NCBI GenBank assembly: GCA_022376465.1
Contig: JACDTU010000007.1
Location: 1 to 64,000 of the forward strand
Direction: 5' to 3'
Length of the DNA: 64,000 nucleotides
From: Cubamyces lactineus
Lineage: Eukaryota; Basidiomycota; Agaricomycetes; Polyporales; Polyporaceae
The position numbers and the translations under genes were made by a program. The notes under the pieces are model-generated. The model was not told the DNA's origin, did not search any database, and worked only from the letters and a program-made list of their open reading frames with translations. Shown here one piece after another: positions 51,138 to 63,864 of this stretch (within the stretch, counting starts at the first letter, position 1; each line of letters starts with the position of its first letter).

Positions 51138-54100
51138 ATGGAAACTGGTTTCAATGGCCTACTACTTGTGTTGACAATCACGAAGGAAGCTTCTACCGTG
51201 TTCCCACCGCTGCAGGCGGCGGTTGGGGCGCTTCTTTCCGTCCTGGAAAGAAACAAGGTGGGTATAGTGGGATGAACCAAGGTCGCTATGCATGTGTCCT
51301 CTTGCTCCGGAACTGATGTACACACACCGCAGAAATACGTGGATGCGACAGAGGCCATACAGTCACTCGTATTACGCATAGAACCCTTGAACGAGATGTT
51401 ACGCAAGATTTCGTCGACCGGCGAGGGTGAACCTCCGCCGGTGCTAAAGGAGAGGCTGGACACCTTCACAAAGTACGCGTTCGCTGCCGTTTCAATGTAA
51501 CAGCAGAGTATTGAGGCTTGTGGGTAGAAAGGTACAATCAGTCGTAGACAGTGCCAAAGCGCTGTGGGCGCGAGGACGAATTGCACGCTTTGTGAGTGCT
51601 GCTGAATACACAGAGAAGGTCAAGTCGTGGATCGAGGAGCTTTCCTGGCATGTCCACAGCTTTGTAGTGAGTCTTCAGTCGCATCACGTCTTCCGCTCTT
51701 TCTCACGTGCGCCCAGCTCGAAGGAACAATAGAGCTCGAGCTGACCGTACATGTATGCTCTTGTCAGCTACTCGCGAGACGTCGCTGTTAAGCATATGAT
51801 TTTGCATAGGAGATAGCTGGCAACCTGCAACACGGCTTCACTGAGATGGGCGGCCGGTTCGACAAAGTAGACGAGGGTATCGTAGGAATTCGCAACAACA
51901 TACATGCAGTGAGTGCCCTTCTTTCCTCGTGTAGCTGTAGTAATGCTGACTGAGATACAATAGCTTAGAAAGAATGGTGAGGTCGTGCTTTGTCCGCAGA
52001 TACTCGTCGCACTCATCAGTCCAAAGTAGCTATTCCGGGCCTACGCTACGTTCCCCGTGCTCGCTTCGACTTTGGGAGGAGCGGCCGCTCAGCATGCGAC
52101 CCAGGCACTCGTAAAGAAGTCTTGGAGAAGATCTACACCTGGCTGCGACCGGGAACTCAAGCACAGGAAGACCTTCCCCAGCCTTTCTCTGGCATCAATG
52201 TCGAGTGGCACCCAGACCGTCCGATACTCTGGATTCACGCACTCGCAGGTGCCGGGAAGACGACACTCGCCGAGACTATTGCGAGACGGTGCCACGAGGA
52301 TTGCATACTTGCCGCAAGCTTTTTATGCGCACGAGATGGCGATTGAAGCGACATTCTATGTATCGTCCAAAACATCGCATCCGACCTCGCGGAGCACTGG
52401 TCACTGTTCCGCGACGCCCTCCTCGCCGCTGTCAAGGACAACCCACACATCCAGGGGGCGAGTGCGGCACAGCAGATCAAGACGCTCCTCGTCGAACCTC
52501 TCCATGTTGCGAAGGCTCAGGGCGAACCCCCAAAGGATCTCATAGTCGTCATCGACGCCTTGGATAAATGTACAGATGACAGTGCGGAGTCAACGCTCCT
52601 CCAAGCGTTTTCGTTGCACATCGCTCTTCTTGCACCTCTGAAGTTCATCATCACCAGTTGACCGGTCGCCAACATCACACATGGATTCCGAGCTCTCGAA
52701 GACCTCCGGCAGAATACGCAGGAGCTTCCATTGGATAGAGTGACCCCTGAGCTGACAGAACGGGATATCGCCACCTTCCTCCAGAGGCGCTTCAAGTAGA
52801 TCGGCGACCGGTATGCTGTGGATGCAAACTGGGTGTCCGTGGATGAAGTGCAGCGTTTGGCTCGTCTCTCTGAGGAGCTATTCATCTATGCAGCCATGGT
52901 CGCTTCATTCGTCGAAGACAAGGCGGTCCGTGACCCTCAACATCAGCTCGACATAATGCTCCATCCAGATCTTGGTGACTCTGCGGCCCTCCGCAGAAAT
53001 GCAACTCAGTTTGTGATGCTTGACACTCTGTACGGCCAGGTATTGCGCGCTGCTTTCGAGACACCCTCCTCTCTTCTACAGGCCTGGGTGAAGCGCATCC
53101 TAGGGACAATCGCTCTTGCAGAAGAACGGTTGAGTACGGACGGACTAGCGTCTCTGCTCGGCGATGCATCAGGTTCCGTCTGGAGCATCGTCGATCCTCT
53201 ACGCTCTGTCCTGGCCATTCCATTCGAGGAAGAGGTGCATAGAGGCATCCGGATCATCCATCTCTCCTTCGCCGACTTCCTCGTCGACCAAAATCGCTGC
53301 ACTGACAAGGCCTTCTACATCCATTCCCCCATTCAACACTCGCTCATCGCTTTGAGATGCCTCACACTAATGCAGTCATTGAAGTACAATATCTGCGAGA
53401 TCGACCTCGAGCACGACCGTGTCCTCAATAGCGAGATCACTGACTTGTCCGCGAAGATCACTCGGCACATTCCTCCCACGCTCCGATATGCATGCAAGTA
53501 CTGGACCCGTCACCTATGCTATGGCGAGATTGGCGAAGACCTGCTCATGATGCTCGAGGCGTTCTGCAAATCCCATCTTCTGCACTGGCTCGAGGCTTTG
53601 AGCCTCCTAGGCTGTGTCGACGGCGCGGTCGAGGCTCTGCAGTCGGTGCAGACCTTCCTGAAGGCGAGTGATACCCATCCTTTCTGCACGCATTACTAAA
53701 ACCTATTGTATAACTGCAGGCTCACTCGTTGCAGGCCACGGAGGCTCCGCCGCTCTTGTACGACTGTGAGCGTGTCGTCCATGCATTCTACCCCATCATC
53801 AGCATGTCATCCATGCACATGTACTCAACGGTCACTATATTCGCCCCGCTGGACTCGCCTCTTCGCCGTCTTGCTGCAGCAGATGCACAACATTCCCTGG
53901 CAATGCCTGTTGGAGTGGAGAAAACATGGAGCTTGACCCTTGCGTTGCGAGTGACGGGTACATCCCCTATCAGCGCTCTCGCATTCTCATTGGATGGAAT
54001 GTGCATAGCCTGCGGTTCCATGGATGGGGCGATCCAGCTGCGAAACACGCACACTGGGACACAGATGCAGGCTCTCGAGGGCCATACGAGCACGGTTCGG

Positions 54101-55416
54101 AGTGTTTCGTTCTCGCCAACAGGGAAGGAGCTCCTGTCTGGCTCAGAGGATGGGACGGTGTATGTCCACGATGTCGCCACCGAGGCTCGTCTCTGCAGCT
54201 GGGTAGAAGACTGCGGTATGGTTCTCTCAGTCGCATGGTCACTTGATGGCATACTGGCAGCCTCTGCCTGTGAACGTGACAGTGTGAGACTGTGGAAGGT
54301 CTCCTCTCCCGAGAAGACGGTGGTGCTGCGGCGGGCAGGCAGGTTTCAGCAAGTCGTCTTTGCCCCGGATGGCAACCTACTCTCTAGCTCATTTGCAGTG
54401 TGCCACGTCTGGGACGCACGGAGTCTCAACCTCAACCTGGATTCGGATGCAGACATGGCTCCGATTTGGATTCAGGAGCATGGTGCCACGATCGCAGTGG
54501 TGGCTGTGTCCCCTGACAGCCGTCTAGTCGCTTGTGGCCTTCACGGTGGTCCGATCGTTCTCTCGAACAAGTCGGATGGGCGACGGGTGCGATCGCTGCC
54601 AAGTCAGAGTCAAGTCATGTCCCTTGTCTTCTATCCAAACAATGCTCTCGCCGCAGCATACAACAACGTGGTGTTCACTCTGTGGGACGTGTCTACGGGC
54701 GCCGAACTAGTGAAGACGATCAGCAACGAGTGGGCGAATGCGGCTGCTTTCTTGTCTGACAGGCTTCTCATCGCACATGCCGTCGGAGGCCAAGTGCAGA
54801 TCCGGCTGTGTCCCTCGGAGCTGGAGCACGACACATCCCTCCTAGGCCAAGTCATACAGCGTTGCAGACCCTCTACGACACATTGGTGTTCTACAGCTGA
54901 TGATCGGGAACGTCGGACATTGTTGAGGGCAGTCGCGACATCACCGACAGGGAAGCTTGTTGCTGCGGTGTACGAGGACGAACTGCGTGTCTACGGGGCA
55001 TCCACAGGACGTTGTGAGCGTGTCATTCGCCATTTGAGCACGCTTGCGCCGATGACCACATGGTCGCCCACAAGCAATCTGTTGACATGCAGCGGGAAAG
55101 GCGGAGTCGTTCGGGTGTGGAAGGCGGACACAGGAGAACGCGTGGGGACCTTCACAGGCCACTCGGGTACCGGGACCACTGTCGTCTTCGCCCCGGACGA
55201 GCAGCACATCCTCTTCGGATCGTTCGATGGGGCGATCCACAGGGGGAGGATCAGGCAGAGCGTGGACAAGACGTCATCTCAAGTGCTCTTCCAGTCTGAT
55301 GGAGTCCACATCATCGCGTTGGCGCTCTCCCCCGACGGACACTGGATCCTCTCCGCCGCCACGACAGGTTCCCCGCTGGCAGACACAGCAGGCGCCGACC
55401 TTCTGGCGATCCCTTC
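51138..55416 (+). pseudogene. NACHT-WD40 NLR-type (NWD) gene, broken by three stops and 3'-truncated by an LTR
   Basis: Fungal STAND receptor of the allorecognition/innate immunity type. Order: N-terminal helical domain in several exons (GLLLVLTITKEASTVFPPLQ, then DATEAIQSLVLRIEPLNEML), NACHT ATPase with Walker A HALAGAGKTTLAETIA and Walker B DLIVVIDALDKC, a winged-helix/linker region, then WD40 repeats (SPISALAFSLDGMCIACGS onwards, about eight or more). One reading frame runs through the NACHT part but is stopped by TGA at 52344 and 52659 and TAG at 52797. The first two fit CGA-to-TGA (the second in ITS-stop-PVANI), the third CAG-to-TAG. A GC-AG intron (GCGAGT) likely joins the linker to the WD40 exon. 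At 55417 the coding sequence runs into a reverse-oriented LTR, so the last repeats are lost. The first exons are not resolved. Confidence 0.85.
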
Positions 55417-55542
55417 TGTTACGACGAGCCTAGATCGGTCACACAAGCGACGTCCCAGGGATCGGACCAGAGGTCTCCAGTAGTTCGAGTCGAGTAGAGG
55501 TTCAGAGGAATAGGCAATGGATAACCAGGTCGAGCTGAGGAT
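55417..55542 (-). mobile_element. LTR related to Gypsy-1, left part, interrupted by Gypsy-2
   Basis: Read on the minus strand this ends …GACCGATCTAGGCTCGTCGTAACA, matching the Gypsy-1 LTR end with few changes, and contains CAGCTCGACCTGGTTA and TTGCCTATTC, also shared with that LTR. It begins exactly where the WD40 coding sequence becomes nonsense. Its other part continues at 63865-64000 beyond Gypsy-2. Whether it is a solo LTR or the 3' LTR of an element extending past the window cannot be seen. Confidence 0.75.
55538..55542. repeat. Gypsy-2 target-site duplication (left), AGGAT
   Basis: AGGAT at 55538-55542 is repeated exactly at 63860-63864 on the other side of the element, the 5-bp duplication expected of Ty3/gypsy integrase. 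Confidence 0.9.
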
Positions 55543-56235
55543 TGTTAGGACCGTGCCGTCCGGGGGTACAACTCCGGTGGTCAGGACTTGGACGGAGTTC
55601 GGGGTCGGAGTACGACCGGAGGTCGGACTAGCACTGGGGTGAGGACTTTCGCGAAACTATTAGTAACGCACGGGTTCCGACTCGGTGTCCTCTATTTGCG
55701 GACTTCGGAGTACGGACTTGACGGGACGAAGGTCGGACTTGGGAACGGGGTTGGGTCGAAGGGGTTGGTAGGAAGGGAACGAAGGTTGGTCGGACTAGAG
55801 GGTCGGGGTTGAGTGTCGGACTACGAGTTGAACCAGTAATGGGTATAACGAGATTTCCGAACTGAGTAGCTACTACATTCCGGGGCAGTATTTATACTAA
55901 GTCAGAAACCCGATAGAAACAATAAGAGATGTACGTGATAGGAAGGAGTAGAACGAAAGTACGAAGTAACTTGCCAAGGGTAAGATAACGTAGATAGCTC
56001 AGTAAGCAAAAGCCTCATGTAGGTAGCGCCATGAGGGGTTATCTGAGACATGTAAGTCATGGGGTCGGGGGAAGTCCGAAGTACGGAGTACGAAGTGCGG
56101 AGTACGGAGAACGGAGTCGGGGGTACGGGGTACGGAAGAGCGGAGTACGGAGGAACGGAGTACGTAACGCGGAGTAAGGAGCGGGGTACGGGGGTTCGGG
56201 GATCGGGCTTCGGGGTTACAGCACGGAGCGTAACA
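55543..56235 (-). repeat. Gypsy-2 3' LTR
   Basis: 693 bp, TGTTAGG to CGTAACA on the plus strand. It contains an array of short CGGAGTACGG-type repeats (about 56076-56180) and a TATA box for element-sense transcription. Only one base difference from the right LTR was found (A at the position of G in GGTCGGGACTT). Confidence 0.95.
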
Positions 56236-56238
56236 GTG

Positions 56239-56248
56239 CCTCCCCCCT
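56239..56248 (-). other. Gypsy-2 polypurine tract
   Basis: On the minus strand AGGGGGGAGG lies three bases before the 3' LTR, the expected plus-strand primer. Confidence 0.75.
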
Positions 56249-56372
56249 AGGCCCGAACCCTTGAGGGCCTATAGTGAAGGGAAATGGAAGTCTGTCCAAA
56301 AAAGGTAATCCGATAAGTCCAGGGAACGGAGATCAAGAATCGGGGCAGGGTCAGAATCGATGAAGAAAGGTG

Positions 56373-56380
56373 TATATAAG
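56373..56380 (+). promoter_or_regulatory. TATA box of the antisense gene carried by Gypsy-2
   Basis: TATATAAG 63-70 bp before the ATG at 56443 on the plus strand, followed by a pyrimidine/CACCACC leader. It gives the antisense gene its own promoter, independent of the LTR. Confidence 0.65.
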
Positions 56381-56442
56381 ACGGGGGTGAGACTTAGCCA
56401 GTTCGTCCTCGCTCTTTGTCTCCCACCACCACCACCAGCACT

Positions 56443-57836
56443 ATGTCCTCAACCCTCGACAACATTCAGGCTTTGGAGGCGCACCTTGCGCAGCTCCGGA
56501 TGAAGGCAGCGGCGGAGGAGGCCGCAGCAGCCGAAGCGTAAGTACCGGGGTTGCCGGGGTTGCGGAGTACGGAGTTCGGGCTAACGGTGGTTTACAGGGC
56601 GCGAAAAGCGGAGGAGGAGCGAGCACGGGAGGAGAAAGAGCGCGCGGAGTACGAGGCCGCGCAGAAGGCAGCAGCGCTGATCCGCCAGGCTGCCCTCGCG
56701 AAGGCCGGGGCTTCCGCGCGGGGAAGCAAGCGTCCCGCGGAGGACGAGGAGCCGGAGTCGGAGGAGGAAGAGGACGACGCGGAGTTGCTCGTCCCGCGGT
56801 AAGTCCGGTCGGGGTACGGAGTACGGGGGTCGGACTAACGGAGTTCCACAGGACGAGGTGTGACCGGTGCGCCGCGAAGCAAATCGCGTGCCGGTTCCGC
56901 GCGGGCAAACGGACGTCGAGTTGCGTCCAATGCCAGAAAGCTCGGTCGCGCGCGTGCGTCGGGGCCCGCGGACTTCCCGCGGACATCCAAGCCCGGATCG
57001 CGCGCAAGGAGGAGGCCCCAAGCCCGCAGCGCAAGAAGGTCAAGTCCGCCCCCATCGTCGACGACGACGACGGGTTTGAGACCCCCGCGCCCACCGGAGT
57101 TCGGAGTTCGGAGAAGGTGCGGGCGGAGAAGGGCAAGGGGAAGGAGAAGGAGAAGGAGAAGACGGTGGAGAAGGCGGCGGAGAAGCCGCTGCAGCCAGGT
57201 GAGGTCCGATGGACCTTTGTCGCACCACCCGGAATTAACCCCCCAGCACGAACAGTCGTCGCCCGAGGCCCGAGCATCGCAGGCTCGTCGACGGGCCCTC
57301 GGATGTCCGCCAGCTCCGGACTTCCGGAGGTTGGGAAGTCCGACCTCCGGTGGTCCGACGACCCGGAGAAGCTCTCCGACCGGGAGCTCCTCGAGCACCT
57401 GCTCGTCGTGGTGCAGCGCAACCGGCGCACCGCGGGGCGGGTCATCGACCTGCTGGTCGACGAGGAGGAGCAGCGGGAGGAGATGATGCGGGAGGAGGTC
57501 CGGGGTCTTGGCGATGCCATCGCCAAGATCGTGCGGAAGGAGTTGAAGGCCGTCATCGGCGAGGCCGTCCGCGAGGCGGTGAAGTCCGAACTCGCGACGG
57601 AGTTCGGGACTATGCTGCGGGAGATCCTTGAGATCACCTCGCAGGACAAGGAGGACGCGATCGCGGACGCGCTGGAGCGGGCGGGGGTTGCTGGGTCGGA
57701 CTGGGAGGAGGAGAATGGGTCGGGGTTGGACAAGTCCGCGCGGGGCAAGTCCGGTGAGGAGGAGGAGGAGCAGGGCGAGGGCGCGAAGGAGGGGAAGGGG
57801 CCGGAGGACCCGGCGGACATGGACATGGCGGAGTAG
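56443..57836 (+). CDS. antisense retrotransposon gene: Zn2Cys6 and coiled-coil protein, two introns
   Basis: 426 aa from three exons in phase: 56443-56537, 56598-56798, 56852-57836, both introns GTAAGT to CACAG or TACAG. The N terminus is an Ala/Glu/Arg-rich coiled coil, then an acidic block. Residues 102-134 match the Zn(II)2Cys6 binuclear cluster consensus: C102-x2-C105-x6-C112-x10-C123-x2-C126-x7-C134, with basic residues around it (CDRCAAKQIACRF, CVQCQKARSRAC). After it come a basic Lys/Glu stretch and a helical region (LSDRELLEHLLVVVQRNRRT, later IVRKELKAVIGEAVREAVK) and an acidic end. It is probably a nuclear DNA-binding protein. It lies between pol and the 3' LTR on the opposite strand, convergent with pol (107 bp between stops). 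It could be a captured host gene or an element regulator. Confidence 0.85.
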
Positions 57837-57943
57837 GGCGGTAGTACGGACTTCGGACCTCGGACTTCGTAGCTAGTATCTTGTAGTCCGAGTGCGGAGG
57901 AGTATAGAAAGAAATCTGCTGGTGAGAACTCCGCGTGTGAACT

Positions 57944-60900
57944 TCAAGACAATTTAGCAAGAGGTCCGGGCTTGTCCGGGTAAGCTGCGTGGAAGTCCGA
58001 AACTAGCTCCTGGGCATGTCCGAGCTCCGTGGCCAAGATCCACGAAGTTTCTTCGTCCGTACCTTCGTAGCCTGCCCATCGGACTAGGTACAGGAGTTGA
58101 CAACTCCGACGCCGGCGGTCAATCTTGGAGTCGAGGATCTCCGAAATCTCGTACTCCGGTTCTCCGTCCACCAGGATCGGAGGTGGCGGAGTTTGGACGC
58201 GGCCGGGGATGGTGTTCGGAGTTGCAGGCTCGAGTTGTGAGACATGGAAAACGGGGTGTACCGCGCGCATAGAGTCCGGTAGTCGGAGGGTGAAGGAGTG
58301 AGTTCCGACCTGCGCGATGATAGTGAATGGACCTAAGAACTTCTCGGACAACTTTTTGGAGGGACGAGTAGTCCGGATGTGCTGAGCTCGGACATAGACC
58401 TGATCTCCGACCTTGAAGTCCGGCGCGGGTAGACGGTGTTTGTCCGCCTGTACTTGGTACCGGGCCTGGGCTTCGGCGATCTGCTGTCGGAGTTGGGTGT
58501 GAAGTTCGTCGAGGTCGACAGCGTAGTCGCGAGCTCGAGCGGAGGTGAGGTCCCGCTCGGGGTAGACGGAGATGGCGGGGTTGTAGCCCTTGTTCGCGAA
58601 GAACGGGGATATACCGGTAGTTGCGGACGGAGCATTGTTGTACGCGAACTCCGCCAAGGGAAGGAGTTGGGACCAGTTGTCCTGCTGGTAGTTCGAATAG
58701 ATCCGGAGGTACTGCTCGAGGGTCTGGTTAACCCGCTCGGTTTGACCGTCGCCTTCCGGGTGGTAACCGGAGGTGAAGTGAAGGCGCATGTCGAGGGCCT
58801 TACCGAGGGAGCGGAAGAAGTGAGAGACGAACTCCGAGCCCCGGTCGGAGGTAACGTGCGAGGGAACTCCGTGCTTGGAGAACACATGGAGTACGAACAA
58901 GTCCGCTAACTCCGAGGCTGTAAGCGTGTCGTGGGTAGGGATGAATATACCTTGCTTAGTGAGCCTGTCGACTACCACCAAGATCGCGGTGTAGCCAGCG
59001 GAGTTCGGGAGTTGCTCGATGAGGTCCATGGAGATGGAGTTCCAGGGTCGCTCGGGGATCGGGAGTTGCTTCAAAGTACCGTAGGGGAGATGCCGGGGGA
59101 CTTTAGCTCGCGCACAGGTAGTACAGGACTTACAATAGTCCCGGACGAAGAGTCGAAGTCCGGGCCAGGCGTAGTCCCGCAGGACCAGGGCTTGTGTCTT
59201 GTTCTGTCCCCAGTGTCCGGCAGTAGGGTGGTCGTGACAAGCTCGGAGTACGCGAAGGCGGAGGTCGCCGGAGTTCGGGACATAGACTCGACCTGAGAGT
59301 CGGAGTAGCCCGTCTTCATCGCGGGACCATCGGGAGTTGCCTTCGGAGGCGAGCTTGAGTGCGGCAAATAGTTCGGGGTCAGGAGTCGGGGTTGCTTGAG
59401 CGGACTTGATGTCCGAGAGGAGTTGTTCGGAGTCGAGGACGAAGGAAGCTCGGAGTACGGGGGGTCGGAGGTAGGTAGCCCGGAGGGACGCGGCGAGCTG
59501 CTCCTGGGTGAAAACCGGTCGGTAGTTGTGTGGGTTGACGACGGAGTAGTCACTGCCCCCCTCTTTTGGGTAGACGTCCCAACGGCGTGTCAGTGCGTCG
59601 GGCTTCGCTCCAAGCTTACCTGGCCGGAACCGGACTACGAGGTTGAACTGCGAGAGGAACTCCGACCATCGGGCTTGACGGCGGGTCAGTAACTTCGTAG
59701 TCGCGAAGTATACCAAATTCTTGTGGTCCGTGACAACGTCGATCGGGGTTGCCGAACCTTCGAGGTAGTGCCGCCAGGTCTTGAAACATTCGAAGATCGC
59801 GAGGAGTTCCTTGTCGTGGGTGTCGTAGTTCAACTCCGCGCCGGTCAAGGTGCGGGAGTGGAAGGCAATGGGGTGGAGTTCACCGGACTCGGTGGTAAGG
59901 GAGAGAATGCCGGCGATGGCGTAGTCCGAGGCGTCAGTCTCGACGGTGAGGGGTCGGTCGGGCATCCAGTGGTGTAGTACCGGAGCTGTCGTGAACGCCT
60001 TCTTGAGAGCGTTAAACGAACTCCGACATTCCTCGGAGAAGTGCCAAGGCACGGACTTGCGGGTTAAGCGGGTCAGCGGTAGTACGATCTCGGAGTAGTT
60101 TGGAATAAACCGTCGATAGAAGTTCGCGAACCCCAGGAACGACTGTATGTCGCGGACCTTCCGGGGTTCGGGCCAATCCAAGATCGCCTTAACCTTCGAC
60201 TCCGCCATGGTGAGTCCGGTGGGAGAGAGGATGTAACCGAGGTACTCGACGGAGTCGGTGTGGAACTCGCACTTGTCAGCGCGGGCATAAAGCCGGTGCT
60301 TGCGGAGTCGCCGGAGTACCTCTTTGACGTGCTTGCGGTGTTGCTCGGGGTTGTCGGAGTAGATGAGGATGTCGTCCAGGTAGACGATGACGCACACATC
60401 GAGCATGTCCGCGAAGATGTCATTGACGAACCGCTGGAAAGCAGCGGGCGCGTTAGAAAGTCCGAACGGCATGACTAACCATTCGAAAGACCCATAGCGG
60501 GTCCGAAACGCGGTCTTCCACTCATCTCCGGGAGCTATGCGGACTAGGTTGTAGGCGTGACGGAGGTCGATTTTGGTATAGATCCGGGCCTTCCGAGGCG
60601 CGTCCAGCAAGTCCGAGACGAGAGGAAGGGGGTAGCGGTCCTTCCGGGTGATCTTATTCAAGCCCCGGTAGTCCACGCAAAGGCGAAGAGATCCGTCCTT
60701 CTTTTTGACGAAGAGGACGGGAGCTCCGCAGGGAGAGTTGGACGGACGTATGAACCCCGATCGGAGGTTCTCGTCAATATACTCCCGAAGCGTGTCGAGC
60801 TCGAGTTTTGAGAGGGAGTAAATAGGTCCGAGTGGCGGAGTAGCCCCTTCTTCCAGGTCGATCTTTAAGTCGTAGGGGCGATGCTCCGGTAGGATGTCGG

Positions 60901-61675
60901 CCTTGGTCTTGCTGAAGACGTCCGCAAACTCGTGGTACTCCTCCGGAACTCCGGTGAGGTCCGGGGGAGAGTCGGAGATGGACGAACTCCGCGCAGTAGC
61001 CAAGTCCGGGGTAGACAGGTTCAGGGTATAGCTCGCGGACCCCGGGAGTTTGCAAGCCCGAGCGAAAGCAGCAGCGTTCACAAGGGAGATCCGGGGTACG
61101 GAGGTCGGAGTAGGAGAAGTCGGTAGTTCCGGAGTAGCCGGAGTAGACGGAGTAGACGGAGTACGCTCAGCCGGAGCTGGCGGGGGTACCATGGTGTCAG
61201 AAACAGGACGCGGCGGGGGTGCGGAACGGAATTGGATGCTGCGCTTCTTCCAGTCAATCAACGGATTGTAGGCGGAGAGCCAGCTGTATCCCAGAACGGC
61301 AGACACGGACTTGTCGAGCGGAGTAACATAGAAATCTATATTGAGGACTTCTCCAGACGGGAAATGTACGGGCAGAGTGGTAAACGAAGTAATCAGGTGG
61401 TTAGAAGTACCGTCAAAAAGCTGTAGACGGAGCGGGGTTACGGCGGTAGTTGGGAGTTGATACATAGTCGCGAAATCGGAGTCGATGAAACAATGGGAGG
61501 AACCGGAGTCGATAAGGGCGCGGAACGGAGTTGGGATAGGATCGGAGTACAAGTCGAGGAAGAGTGCATGGGGGTCGGAAAGAGCGGACGCGTTGAGCCT
61601 GAGGATCTCCGTACCAGAGGAGTCAACGCGGTCCTCACGGGGTACGGAGTTCGGAGGACCGCGGACTAATTTTTT
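57944..61675 (-). CDS. Gypsy-2 pol: protease-RT-RNaseH-integrase-chromodomain
   Basis: Open without interruption from the frameshift site to the stop at 57944 (about 1240 codons including the frameshift-encoded lead). Domains: aspartic protease ALIDSGSSHCFIDSDFA; RT with FVKKKDGSLRLCVDYRGLN, FGLSNAPAAFQRFVN and catalytic YLDDILIYSD; RNase H ETDASDYAIAGILS; integrase HHCC (AGHWGQNKTQALV, CTTCARAK) and DDE residues (SMDLIEQLP, TSDRGSEFVSHF, EGDGQTERVNQTLEQYL); C-terminal chromodomain EYEISEILDSKI with LYLVRWAGYEGTDEE. All catalytic residues are present, so it is probably functional. No ATG is needed at its start; it is expressed as a gag-pol fusion. Confidence 0.95.
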   Translation of the reverse strand, partial: KKLVRGPPNSVPREDRVDSSGTEILRLNASALSDPHALFLDLYSDPIPTPFRALIDSGSSHCFIDSDFATMYQLPTTAVTPLRLQLFDGTSNHLITSFTTLPVHFPSGEVLNIDFYVTPLDKSVSAVLGYSWLSAYNPLIDWKKRSIQFRSAPPPRPVSDTMVPPPAPAERTPSTPSTPATPELPTSPTPTSVPRISLVNAAAFARACKLPGSASYTLNLSTPDLATARSSSISDSPPDLTGVPEEYHEFADVFSKTKADILPEHRPYDLKIDLEEGATPPLGPIYSLSKLELDTLREYIDENLRSGFIRPSNSPCGAPVLFVKKKDGSLRLCVDYRGLNKITRKDRYPLPLVSDLLDAPRKARIYTKIDLRHAYNLVRIAPGDEWKTAFRTRYGSFEWLVMPFGLSNAPAAFQRFVNDIFADMLDVCVIVYLDDILIYSDNPEQHRKHVKEVLRRLRKHRLYARADKCEFHTDSVEYLGYILSPTGLTMAESKVKAILDWPEPRKVRDIQSFLGFANFYRRFIPNYSEIVLPLTRLTRKSVPWHFSEECRSSFNALKKAFTTAPVLHHWMPDRPLTVETDASDYAIAGILSLTTESGELHPIAFHSRTLTGAELNYDTHDKELLAIFECFKTWRHYLEGSATPIDVVTDHKNLVYFATTKLLTRRQARWSEFLSQFNLVVRFRPGKLGAKPDALTRRWDVYPKEGGSDYSVVNPHNYRPVFTQEQLAASLRATYLRPPVLRASFVLDSEQLLSDIKSAQATPTPDPELFAALKLASEGNSRWSRDEDGLLRLSGRVYVPNSGDLRLRVLRACHDHPTAGHWGQNKTQALVLRDYAWPGLRLFVRDYCKSCTTCARAKVPRHLPYGTLKQLPIPERPWNSISMDLIEQLPNSAGYTAILVVVDRLTKQGIFIPTHDTLTASELADLFVLHVFSKHGVPSHVTSDRGSEFVSHFFRSLGKALDMRLHFTSGYHPEGDGQTERVNQTLEQYLRIYSNYQQDNWSQLLPLAEFAYNNAPSATTGISPFFANKGYNPAISVYPERDLTSARARDYAVDLDELHTQLRQQIAEAQARYQVQADKHRLPAPDFKVGDQVYVRAQHIRTTRPSKKLSEKFLGPFTIIAQVGTHSFTLRLPDSMRAVHPVFHVSQLEPATPNTIPGRVQTPPPPILVDGEPEYEISEILDSKIDRRRRSCQLLYLVRWAGYEGTDEETSWILATELGHAQELVSDFHAAYPDKPGPLAKLS
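61627..61663 (-). promoter_or_regulatory. Gypsy-2 frameshift-stimulating stem-loop
   Basis: On the minus strand CGCGGTCCTC (61663-61654 arm pairs with 61636-61627 arm GAGGACCGCG) forms a perfect 10-bp GC-rich stem with a 17-nt loop, five bases after the slippery heptamer. Spacing and stability are those of known -1 frameshift stimulators. Confidence 0.7.
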
Positions 61676-63135
61676 GTCTCCTTCGGGGCTGCAGCCGGAG
61701 CGGGCGCAGCGGGAGCGGGGTTGGCTTGAGCGGCGCGACCCTTAGTCGCGGACGAGGTCTTCCTCGGACAAGCACTCGCGGTATGACCAGCTCCACCGCA
61801 GAAGAGACAGAGATTGTTGGCGAAACGGCGTTGACGCTCCTCGGGGGTGAGTTTTCCGTCCTTACCGAGCTTGTCGGTGTACGTCTTGGCCGGGGTCTTC
61901 GGAGTCTTAGGAGACTTCGACGAAGTACCGGAATTGCCGGACTTGGACGGGGTAGACGAGGAGGCCTGTCCGGAGTTGTTACCTCCGGACTTGTTGCCGG
62001 AGTTGGAGGACTTGGAGTCGGAGGTCGACTTGTTACCGGACTTCGAAGGTCCGGACTCGCGCGAGACCTCGGCCTTGCGCTCCCAGTAGCGGTTGTCGAT
62101 CGACTGCGCGAGGTCGCGAAGGGCCACCAGGGTCTCGGGCTTGCCGACCTCGGAGATGCGGTCCTTGAGACGGTTCGGAAGTCCGTCGTAGAACCGGTAC
62201 CGGAGCGGAGCATTACCCCAACGGACTTGAGTAGCGAGGCGGGTGAACTGAGTGATGTACTTAGCTATCCGCTGGTTGTCGCCCATCCGGAGGTTCATCA
62301 GCTCATGCTCCGCAGCTCCGGAGGCGTCGTAAGGACCGAAGTTCACTCGGAGTTCCTCCTGGAAGTGGTCGTAGGATGTAAGGAAGATGGGGGGGTTGTC
62401 CGAGTCGCCTTCGAGGAGGTAGGGCTCGAACCACTGTAGCGCGGTGCCCTTGAGGAAGGAGATGGCGTAGGTCACCTTCTTCTCATCGGAGTCGAAGGTT
62501 CGGGGTCGGGCCTTGAAGACAAGTTCCAACTGCGTGAAGAAAGACCGGAGTTTGTTGGGGTCGGACCCGTCGAACTGGTCCGGCTCGCGGACGTTGTGCC
62601 GCTCGTTGTTCGAAGGTTGGGTAACCGCCGGAGTTGGAGCGGTAGTACGTTCGAGGGTACGCGCGATGAGAGAGATCGCGGTCGCTAGTTGCGACTGAAC
62701 CCGGTCTTCGGAGTCGGAGGAGTCCGAGCTTGAGCTAGTGTCGTCGTCTCCCGGCCCTTGTGGGTCGTTGTCCGGAGGGCCTGGCGGTCCTGGAGGGCCC
62801 GGCGGACCTGGAGGACTAGGCGGACCCGGAGGCCCGCGGCTCGGACCTGAAGGCTGACCCTCGGAGAACGGGTTCCCCGGAGATGGCTCGCGGGGTACCT
62901 GCGAGGCAGTCGCGGTAGAGATGACCAGAGGCTGAGGCGGGTCACCTTCGTCGTCCCCATCGGAGGACGCTTCGACGATTGTTCGAGCGAACTGCCCGCG
63001 GCGGCTCGGAGTAGCTTCTTCTTGCGTCGCTGAGTCGCCTCGGCGAGCTGTCCAGCCACTCCAGTTCTCGGCGGGGTCTTCTTGCTCTAGGGCGCGAGAT
63101 TGCGTCTGAGTGCGGACTACGGTTCGAGTGGACAT
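61666..63135 (-). CDS. Gypsy-2 gag polyprotein
   Basis: 489 aa. The N-terminal 150 residues are disordered and Pro/Gly-rich, with a collagen-like PPGPPGPPGPPG run, then a Ser/Asp stretch. The capsid core contains PDQFDGSDPNKLRSFFTQLE, ALQWFEPYLLEG and LRVNFGPYDASGAAEHELMN, followed by YITQFTRLATQVRW. A Ser/Lys/Gly-rich linker leads to a CCHC zinc knuckle (CLFCGGAGHTASACP) and an Ala/Pro tail. The gene starts 31 bp after the 5' LTR (element sense) and ends at the frameshift heptamer. Confidence 0.93.
   Translation of the reverse strand: MSTRTVVRTQTQSRALEQEDPAENWSGWTARRGDSATQEEATPSRRGQFARTIVEASSDGDDEGDPPQPLVISTATASQVPREPSPGNPFSEGQPSGPSRGPPGPPSPPGPPGPPGPPGPPDNDPQGPGDDDTSSSSDSSDSEDRVQSQLATAISLIARTLERTTAPTPAVTQPSNNERHNVREPDQFDGSDPNKLRSFFTQLELVFKARPRTFDSDEKKVTYAISFLKGTALQWFEPYLLEGDSDNPPIFLTSYDHFQEELRVNFGPYDASGAAEHELMNLRMGDNQRIAKYITQFTRLATQVRWGNAPLRYRFYDGLPNRLKDRISEVGKPETLVALRDLAQSIDNRYWERKAEVSRESGPSKSGNKSTSDSKSSNSGNKSGGNNSGQASSSTPSKSGNSGTSSKSPKTPKTPAKTYTDKLGKDGKLTPEERQRRFANNLCLFCGGAGHTASACPRKTSSATKGRAAQANPAPAAPAPAAAPKETKN
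61669..61675 (-). promoter_or_regulatory. Gypsy-2 -1 frameshift heptamer A AAA AAT
   Basis: The end of gag reads ACA AAA AAT TAG. A AAA AAT is an X XXY YYZ slippery heptamer directly before the stop, and pol is in the -1 frame and open from there. With the stem-loop five bases downstream this is a complete frameshift signal. Confidence 0.75.
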
Positions 63136-63153
63136 ATTGAGTGAAACCCGGTG

Positions 63154-63164
63154 AGTTCGGAAAT
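63154..63164 (-). other. Gypsy-2 primer-binding site (self-priming type)
   Basis: On the minus strand ATTTCCGAACT lies two bases after the 5' LTR. It is exactly complementary to AGTTCGGAAAT inside the LTR (63487-63477), which starts 33 bp after the TATA box TATAAATA (63520-63513). The 11-bp pairing of the predicted RNA 5' end with this site is the Tf1-type self-priming arrangement. Confidence 0.7.
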
Positions 63165-63166
63165 AC

Positions 63167-63859
63167 TGTTAGGACCGTGCCGTCCGGGGGTACAACTCCG
63201 GTGGTCGGGACTTGGACGGAGTTCGGGGTCGGAGTACGACCGGAGGTCGGACTAGCACTGGGGTGAGGACTTTCGCGAAACTATTAGTAACGCACGGGTT
63301 CCGACTCGGTGTCCTCTATTTGCGGACTTCGGAGTACGGACTTGACGGGACGAAGGTCGGACTTGGGAACGGGGTTGGGTCGAAGGGGTTGGTAGGAAGG
63401 GAACGAAGGTTGGTCGGACTAGAGGGTCGGGGTTGAGTGTCGGACTACGAGTTGAACCAGTAATGGGTATAACGAGATTTCCGAACTGAGTAGCTACTAC
63501 ATTCCGGGGCAGTATTTATACTAAGTCAGAAACCCGATAGAAACAATAAGAGATGTACGTGATAGGAAGGAGTAGAACGAAAGTACGAAGTAACTTGCCA
63601 AGGGTAAGATAACGTAGATAGCTCAGTAAGCAAAAGCCTCATGTAGGTAGCGCCATGAGGGGTTATCTGAGACATGTAAGTCATGGGGTCGGGGGAAGTC
63701 CGAAGTACGGAGTACGAAGTGCGGAGTACGGAGAACGGAGTCGGGGGTACGGGGTACGGAAGAGCGGAGTACGGAGGAACGGAGTACGTAACGCGGAGTA
63801 AGGAGCGGGGTACGGGGGTTCGGGGATCGGGCTTCGGGGTTACAGCACGGAGCGTAACA
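63167..63859 (-). repeat. Gypsy-2 5' LTR
   Basis: 693 bp, same as the left LTR except one base. Element-sense promoter TATAAATA at 63520-63513 and the presumed RNA start at about 63487. Confidence 0.95.
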
Positions 63860-63864
63860 AGGAT
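63860..63864. repeat. Gypsy-2 target-site duplication (right), AGGAT
   Basis: Exact copy of 55538-55542. Confidence 0.9.

Follow-up and report, generated by a model that had tools for sequence, protein, structure and literature searches.

A spliced antisense gene with a zinc-cluster-like segment and an accumulated CGGAGT motif in a young Ty3/gypsy retrotransposon of Cubamyces lactineus

The window analyzed in this work, a stretch of 64,000 nucleotides at the start of contig JACDTU010000007.1 of the fungus Cubamyces lactineus, contains a complete Ty3/gypsy chromovirus (55543–63859) whose gag and pol are on the minus strand. The plus strand carries, in the interval separating pol from the polypurine tract, a three-exon gene that yields 426 codons when spliced. 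This antisense gene keeps its introns and its linkage to the element among the copies found in the genome, its spliced frame is under purifying selection, and the hexamer CGGAGT has accumulated over the element that carries it. These data, together with a fold predicted for the cysteine-rich part of the protein, suggest that the retrotransposon may encode a DNA-binding protein recognizing its own DNA.

The antisense gene and its linkage to the family

A first-pass annotation of this DNA had placed a three-exon antisense gene with its own TATA box between pol and the polypurine tract, and its coordinates proved right (Table 1). Both introns have a GTAAGT donor, a CTAAC branch-like site and a CAG acceptor. 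Without splicing, intron 1 halts the frame at once and intron 2, of 53 nt, shifts it. Three ENA sequences (P0001, P0014, and P0022) span no exon junction and are therefore uninformative on splicing.

Further copies were sought in the whole genome, of 36.3 Mb in 43 contigs. At least 42 DNA matches to the gene were found, 17 of them at 99–100% identity over the whole gene length; exon 3 gave at least 75 at the protein level, a figure that includes fragments. Used as a query, the 3′ end of pol returned 59 candidates, of which 40 were scored; 39 of the 41 matches listed reach the junction and all 39 adjoin the antisense gene, as established by comparing their coordinates with those of the gene matches. 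Other copies of the family do carry the gene, so it is not a one-off capture. From 32 fetched gene copies, L048, in which the gene is split by an insert, was dropped, leaving an alignment of 31. Both introns are bounded by GT-AG in 30 of these, the exact six-cysteine pattern is present in 30 and 22 have an uninterrupted spliced frame; together with the junctions listed, these counts indicate that the gene is maintained across copies, as are the antisense open reading frames (ORFs) of the Retand type. The persistence of the introns agrees with what had been anticipated: they lie on the antisense strand and are therefore kept in the genomic RNA and carried through each transposition. In one copy each of three sister gypsy families, with 50–56% identity in reverse transcriptase (RT), no six-cysteine pattern was identified in any frame from RT to beyond the end of pol.

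The promoter region of the gene (56261–56420) showed 2 differences in 160 positions in each of the copies L034, L035, and L036, 7 in 160 in a remnant in L031 and 2 in 98 in L047, an old broken copy. It is thus nearly invariant, whereas the genes of the copies used for this comparison have 84–94% identity. The region of the polypurine tract (56236–56260) had no differences in 25 positions in each of L034, L035, and L036. In addition, copy L036 is a mosaic, with pol and gag 99–100% identical to those of the window copy and a third-position difference of 17.5% over the first 800 bases of the gene. The differences for L034 are 17.5% in these 800 bases, 5.0% in pol and 6.0% in gag. The part of the gene holding the putative DNA-binding segment has therefore been exchanged between subfamilies.

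Selection on the spliced frame

The ratio of nonsynonymous to synonymous substitution rates (dN/dS), a check proposed in the annotation, was 0.06–0.18 in 20 of the 21 pairs formed by seven intact copies, and 0.44 in the pair L036-L039, the closest one. The spliced frame is thus under purifying selection, with an estimate that leans towards constraint because this set leaves out 24 broken or redundant copies. Differences among the seven copies at the first, second, and third codon positions numbered 256, 189, and 1145, respectively. In terms of the proportions of differing nonsynonymous (pN) and synonymous (pS) sites, the cysteine segment was the most constrained part of the protein (pN/pS 0.027, pN 0.008) and also had the highest synonymous divergence (pS 0.276). 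Judged from its sequence, the antisense gene is a protein gene with real introns, and since the constraint acts at the protein level, antisense RNA alone is insufficient as an explanation.

Accumulation of CGGAGT in the element

CGGAGT was the most enriched hexamer of the element with respect to the rest of the window (42-fold). The element has 70 sites in 7.6 kb (56 on the plus and 14 on the minus strand), compared with 19 on both strands in the remaining 55.5 kb, and blocks of equal size elsewhere in the window, taken with a step of 200, contained at most 5. The sites are located in the long terminal repeat (LTR), in both introns, in the gene, and in gag and pol; they occur in each of the three codon phases and are present in 25 of the 31 bins of 250 bases. 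Coding constraint fails to explain the excess in pol, where CGGAGT occurs 12 times against 1.62 ± 1.13 expected and its complement ACTCCG 26 times against 7.71 ± 2.22, neither count being reached in any of 2000 synonymous codon shuffles. In the gene, 7 CGGAGT sites were found against 2.07 expected, again with none of 2000 shuffles reaching the observed value. Five control frames (pol pieces of the three sister families and two other ORFs of the window) had at most one site each way, and stretches of about 5.4 kb from the sister families had 0, 1, and 5 sites. Genome-wide, clusters of three sites numbered 555 versus 19 for the reversed pattern, counted irrespective of family membership. In pol the enrichment extends to both orientations wherever the code leaves room for it, and therefore double-stranded DNA is a likelier target than RNA.

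Other results weigh against the accumulation. The excess of ACTCCG in gag is weak (9 against 4.11 expected, reached in 5 of 2000 shuffles), other hexamers rank above CGGAGT in that gene, and the count in the LTR is little above that given by a third-order Markov null. The LTR also contains 11 CGG-N4-CGG pairs; a simple enhancer of this type was considered and set aside, since CGGAGT is enriched over the whole element, beyond the LTR array.

The six-cysteine segment and the relatives of the protein

The DNA targets of zinc-cluster proteins are CGG triplets, and binding is often by dimers that a coiled coil holds together. The cysteines of the antisense protein had been read as a fungal Zn2Cys6 cluster, a claim of which one part stood: the six residues have zinc-cluster spacing, but the cut-off of the Pfam family Zn_clus (PF00172) was missed. 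Neither the window protein nor its cysteine segment matched Zn_clus, no match was obtained at any gene copy in the genome, and the relative P0008 scored 14.4 bits against a cut-off of 21. The segment is therefore labeled here as Zn2Cys6-like, without filing it as a member of the family. In the fold comparison, made with two AlphaFold models, Foldseek gave seven rows at E ≤ 10, of which five correspond to Leu3, one to Gal4 and one to the CBF3 complex of yeast. Among the VIA rows listed, the entries were HAP1, LAC9, PPR1, and Leu3; LAC9 is a zinc-cluster protein and CBF3 contains a zinc cluster. Each of these matches is individually weak, which, like the missed Pfam cut-off, calls for caution. 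Cysteine spacing and the two models taken together weakly support a Zn2Cys6-like fold. The long helices agree with the coiled coils that the annotation had expected on both sides of the cluster, since AlphaFold2 predicts a continuous helix of about 100 residues C-terminal to it, and in the relative P0010 one of 57 residues is predicted N-terminal to it. The broader proposal of a transcription-factor-like antisense gene in a fungal retroelement is likewise supported, by the linkage, the kept introns and the selection on the spliced frame, and the structure matches, weak as they are one by one, are to zinc-cluster proteins.

The relatives named so far belong to Trametes and Cubamyces only, are known as proteins only, and have 33–63% identity; 9 of 22 show the six-cysteine pattern if the final spacing may be 6 or 7. 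No homologue from Botrytis or Monilinia appeared among the approximately 8000 best candidates scored in the protein searches. Analysis of the 426-residue protein with hmmscan up to E = 1 yielded neither a TRP28 domain (PF04195) nor a bZIP match. When residues 97–175 were searched alone, none of 26 candidates reached E ≤ 0.001. A search of solved structures by sequence gave 7 matches, none with a zinc cluster and the best, at E 0.056, to ribosomal protein L6. Finally, a host ancestor of the gene was not found, the profile comparison being weak with the 5 of 15 fetched host zinc clusters that have the full pattern in one exon.

Possible action of the antisense protein

We would give an even chance to the reading in which the element encodes a DNA-binding protein, similar in action to VANC or HBZ, that recognizes the element itself. 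Antisense transcription would start at the TATA promoter just inside the 3′ LTR (element sense) and the three-exon transcript would be spliced. The product would comprise an N-terminal coiled coil, the Zn2Cys6-like segment for DNA binding, stretches of basic and of acidic character, and the long C-terminal helix, and it would most probably enter the nucleus as an oligomer and bind CGGAGT/CGG sites across the element DNA. These binding sites would be densest in the unique 3′ region (U3) of the LTR, with one array preceding the sense promoter as well as the antisense one, and protein bound there could regulate both transcripts, while protein attached along the body could label the family and protect it. 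The bound protein would in this way mark its own family, either tuning LTR transcription, shielding copies from silencing, or both. Among the actions proposed in the annotation (on the LTR, on host genes, or through antisense RNA against pol), the motif result favors the element's own DNA. The gene is convergent with pol, as had been noted, but the two frames do not overlap (57836 versus 57944). A more specific form of self-recognition in two parts, in which the spliced zinc-cluster-like protein coats the approximately 70 CGGAGT sites and protects the family from silencing, is put forward only tentatively.

The protein could also be an autoregulator acting on the LTR alone, the body sites being a by-product. 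HBZ, a spliced bZIP protein that represses the 5′ LTR, is said to act so. The U3 array lies upstream of the sense TATA box in the 5′ LTR and between both TATA boxes in the 3′ LTR; bound there, the protein would act on the sense promoter and on that of the gene itself. The six CGGAGT sites and the further CGG-N4-CGG pairs between the two promoters fit this possibility, as does the nearly invariant antisense promoter. It is nevertheless rather unlikely, as it leaves unexplained the excess in pol beyond coding constraint and in both orientations.

A targeting factor, which would attach to resident copies or to subtelomeric repeats and direct integration there, is improbable. In the genome, 19 of the 32 gene copies are at most 100 kb from a contig end, a zone that makes up 16% of the length in the 20 contigs involved; the count leaves out the copies on C29 and most truncated matches. 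Moreover, a young element is inserted in exon 2 of an older antisense gene copy in L031 (contig C26) and L032 (contig C23), with a five-base duplication seen at L032. However, the integrase chromodomain alone can account for location, contig ends are not necessarily telomeres, and the nested insertion, which may be a single duplicated event seen twice, is an anecdote.

We give similarly little credence to an RNA-binding accessory protein whose cysteine segment would bind ACUCCG on genomic RNA and so serve its packaging or export. The orientation bias of the motif (56 versus 14) is in its favor, but a strand-specific RNA signal predicts one orientation and pol is enriched in both (12 versus 1.62 and 26 versus 7.71), and the fold matches are DNA-binding zinc clusters. 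Nor does a regulator of host genes riding on the element by chance seem probable: zinc-cluster factors usually control metabolic genes, but neither the accumulation of the motif in the element nor the fixed linkage would be explained.

Finally, it is very improbable that the stretch holds no protein gene and gives rise only to non-coding antisense RNA, or is an artefact created by the 461-codon ORF open on the opposite (sense) strand, even though pN/pS is low as well (0.204) in the −1 control frame, with which third positions are shared: the value for the spliced frame is lower (0.129), the splice sites are conserved, and the relatives are at identities where only protein can be conserved. The 461-codon ORF itself was rejected because of this lower pN/pS and because it is interrupted at codons 216–301 in 3 of the 22 copies that keep the spliced frame whole.

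The retrotransposon and its copies

The window element is a young, multi-copy retrotransposon and is apparently autonomous. Its two LTRs, of 693 nt each, differ at one position and, with the 5-bp target duplication, correspond to a Ty3/gypsy element. The order of the Pfam domains in pol (protease, RT, RNase H, integrase, and then chromodomain) is that of a chromovirus, with Pfam Chromo at 26.4 bits against a cut-off of 25.1. Among 17 young copies whose entire sequence was read, both LTRs were found in 14; 11 of these 14 have LTR pairs with 0–2 differences and 12 have the five-base duplication. Stop-free gag and pol stretches of full length are present in at least 7 of the 17.

Table 1. Features of the retrotransposon and of its antisense gene in the window.
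Feature	Position	Strand	Evidence or remark
Target-site duplication AGGAT, left	55538..55542	.	Sequence
3′ LTR (element sense), 693 nt	55543..56235	-	
Sense TATA TATAAATA in 3′ LTR	~55889-55896		
Dispersed CGGAGT sites	55543..63166	56 plus, 14 minus	One LTR counted
Six-site CGGAGT cluster at U3 start	56084..56175	+	Between sense TATA of this LTR and antisense-gene TATA
Polypurine tract, reverse complement of GTGCCTCCCCCCTA	56236..56249	-	Adjoins LTR
Promoter region of antisense gene	56261..56420	+	Contains TATATAAG at 56373-56380
Exon 1, start ATG	56443..56537	+	
Intron 1, 60 nt	56538..56597	+	45-61 nt in other copies
Exon 2, acidic segment	56598..56798	+	
Intron 2, 53 nt	56799..56851	+	40-55 nt in other copies
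Exon 3 and stop codon	56852..57836	+	
Six-cysteine segment, residues 102-134	56859..56957	+	C-x2-C-x6-C-x10-C-x2-C-x7-C
Basic stretch SPQRKKVK	57021..57044	+	Possible nuclear-localisation signal; kept in relatives
Long predicted helix, probable coiled coil	57378..57680	+	AlphaFold2, residues 176-276 of exon-3 protein
pol, 1202 codons	57944..61552	-	Pfam: protease, RT, RNase H, integrase, chromodomain
gag, 489 codons	61666..63135	-	Pfam Retrotrans_gag
5′ LTR (element sense)	63167..63859	-	
Target-site duplication AGGAT, right	63860..63864	.	Sequence

The pol frame is −1 relative to gag and has no early ATG (61552–61666), a feature shared by many elements that use frameshifting. A stretch of eleven bases immediately internal to the 5′ LTR (63166–63154) is complementary to LTR nucleotides 373–383 (63487–63477 and 55863–55853, minus strand), which are 33 nt downstream of the sense TATA box. 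This resembles a self-priming arrangement, for which that of Tf1 is a parallel. Another gypsy family, in L049 (reverse complement, 1793–2986), has a sense ORF of 398 codons with a cysteine-rich end after pol. To the left of the element, at 52200–55483, frames with stops resembling a NACHT and WD40-repeat gene were recognized by eye.

Comparison with known systems

Antisense genes in Ty3/gypsy elements are already known, and it is the combination of introns, a zinc-cluster-like candidate and a self-motif that is new. In the literature searched, which had most subscription journals outside its coverage, we noticed no earlier account of a fungal LTR retrotransposon with an antisense gene of zinc-cluster type. 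The nearest arrangements in print are those of the plant antisense genes and of brtn, and the nearest mechanism that of VANC of VANDAL21. The gene brtn is carried in antisense by the Boty-like retrotransposons of Botrytis cinerea (Zhao et al., 2011, as cited in PMC7264820, PMC8365987, PMC4227169, and PMC5987419), which, like the window element, are described as fungal Ty3/gypsy elements with gag to integrase, a chromodomain and an extra antisense gene (PMC4227169). Their host is an ascomycete, and a zinc cluster, introns or a self-motif are unmentioned in the passages of these citing papers. In plants, additional antisense ORFs are reported for maize Grande (gene23), rice RIRE2, and Retand, the latter with a TRP28 domain (PMC7264820, PMC11963269). 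As described there, they also lie between pol and the 3′ LTR and are kept in many copies; gene23 has its own promoter and a nuclear protein, and DNA binding is predicted for TRP28. Retand differs in belonging to a non-chromovirus lineage and in its protein family, TRP28 being without match here. According to the same two sources, the functions of the antisense genes of LTR retrotransposons are unknown.

VANC21, encoded by the Arabidopsis DNA transposon VANDAL21, binds a short family motif and removes silencing (PMC5735166, PMC10398659). As described there, its motif is dense in its own family, often in one orientation and also in introns, and rare in related families, and CGGAGT resembles it in these respects. 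The VANC motif is mainly in non-coding DNA, whereas CGGAGT is also found within gag, pol, and the antisense gene. Furthermore, VANC21 is another protein, of a DNA transposon, for which binding and demethylation were shown, whereas in the window retrotransposon the parallel is drawn from the motif. HBZ of the animal retrovirus HTLV-1, named in PMC11963269 and PMC7264820, is a further parallel. The likeness lies in an antisense regulatory nuclear protein with an antisense promoter at the 3′ LTR, and the difference in its bZIP, in place of a zinc-cluster-like segment. With Zn2Cys6 factors such as Gal4, Leu3, HAP1, and PPR1, the window protein shares the six-cysteine spacing, the predicted shape of the small domain, and neighboring coiled coils, although its score falls short of the Pfam threshold, most of the basic residues usual between the cysteines are missing from it, and it is carried by a retroelement.

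A DNA-binding candidate under strong selection and a candidate target motif are therefore present in one element, which makes the function directly testable with a single protein and a single DNA fragment. If the protein does bind its own element, this would be an encoded self-recognition system in a fungal retrotransposon, in which codon choice would have been bent to host binding sites, and it would represent a retrotransposon counterpart of plant VANC whose motif has accumulated even within the gag and pol coding sequences.
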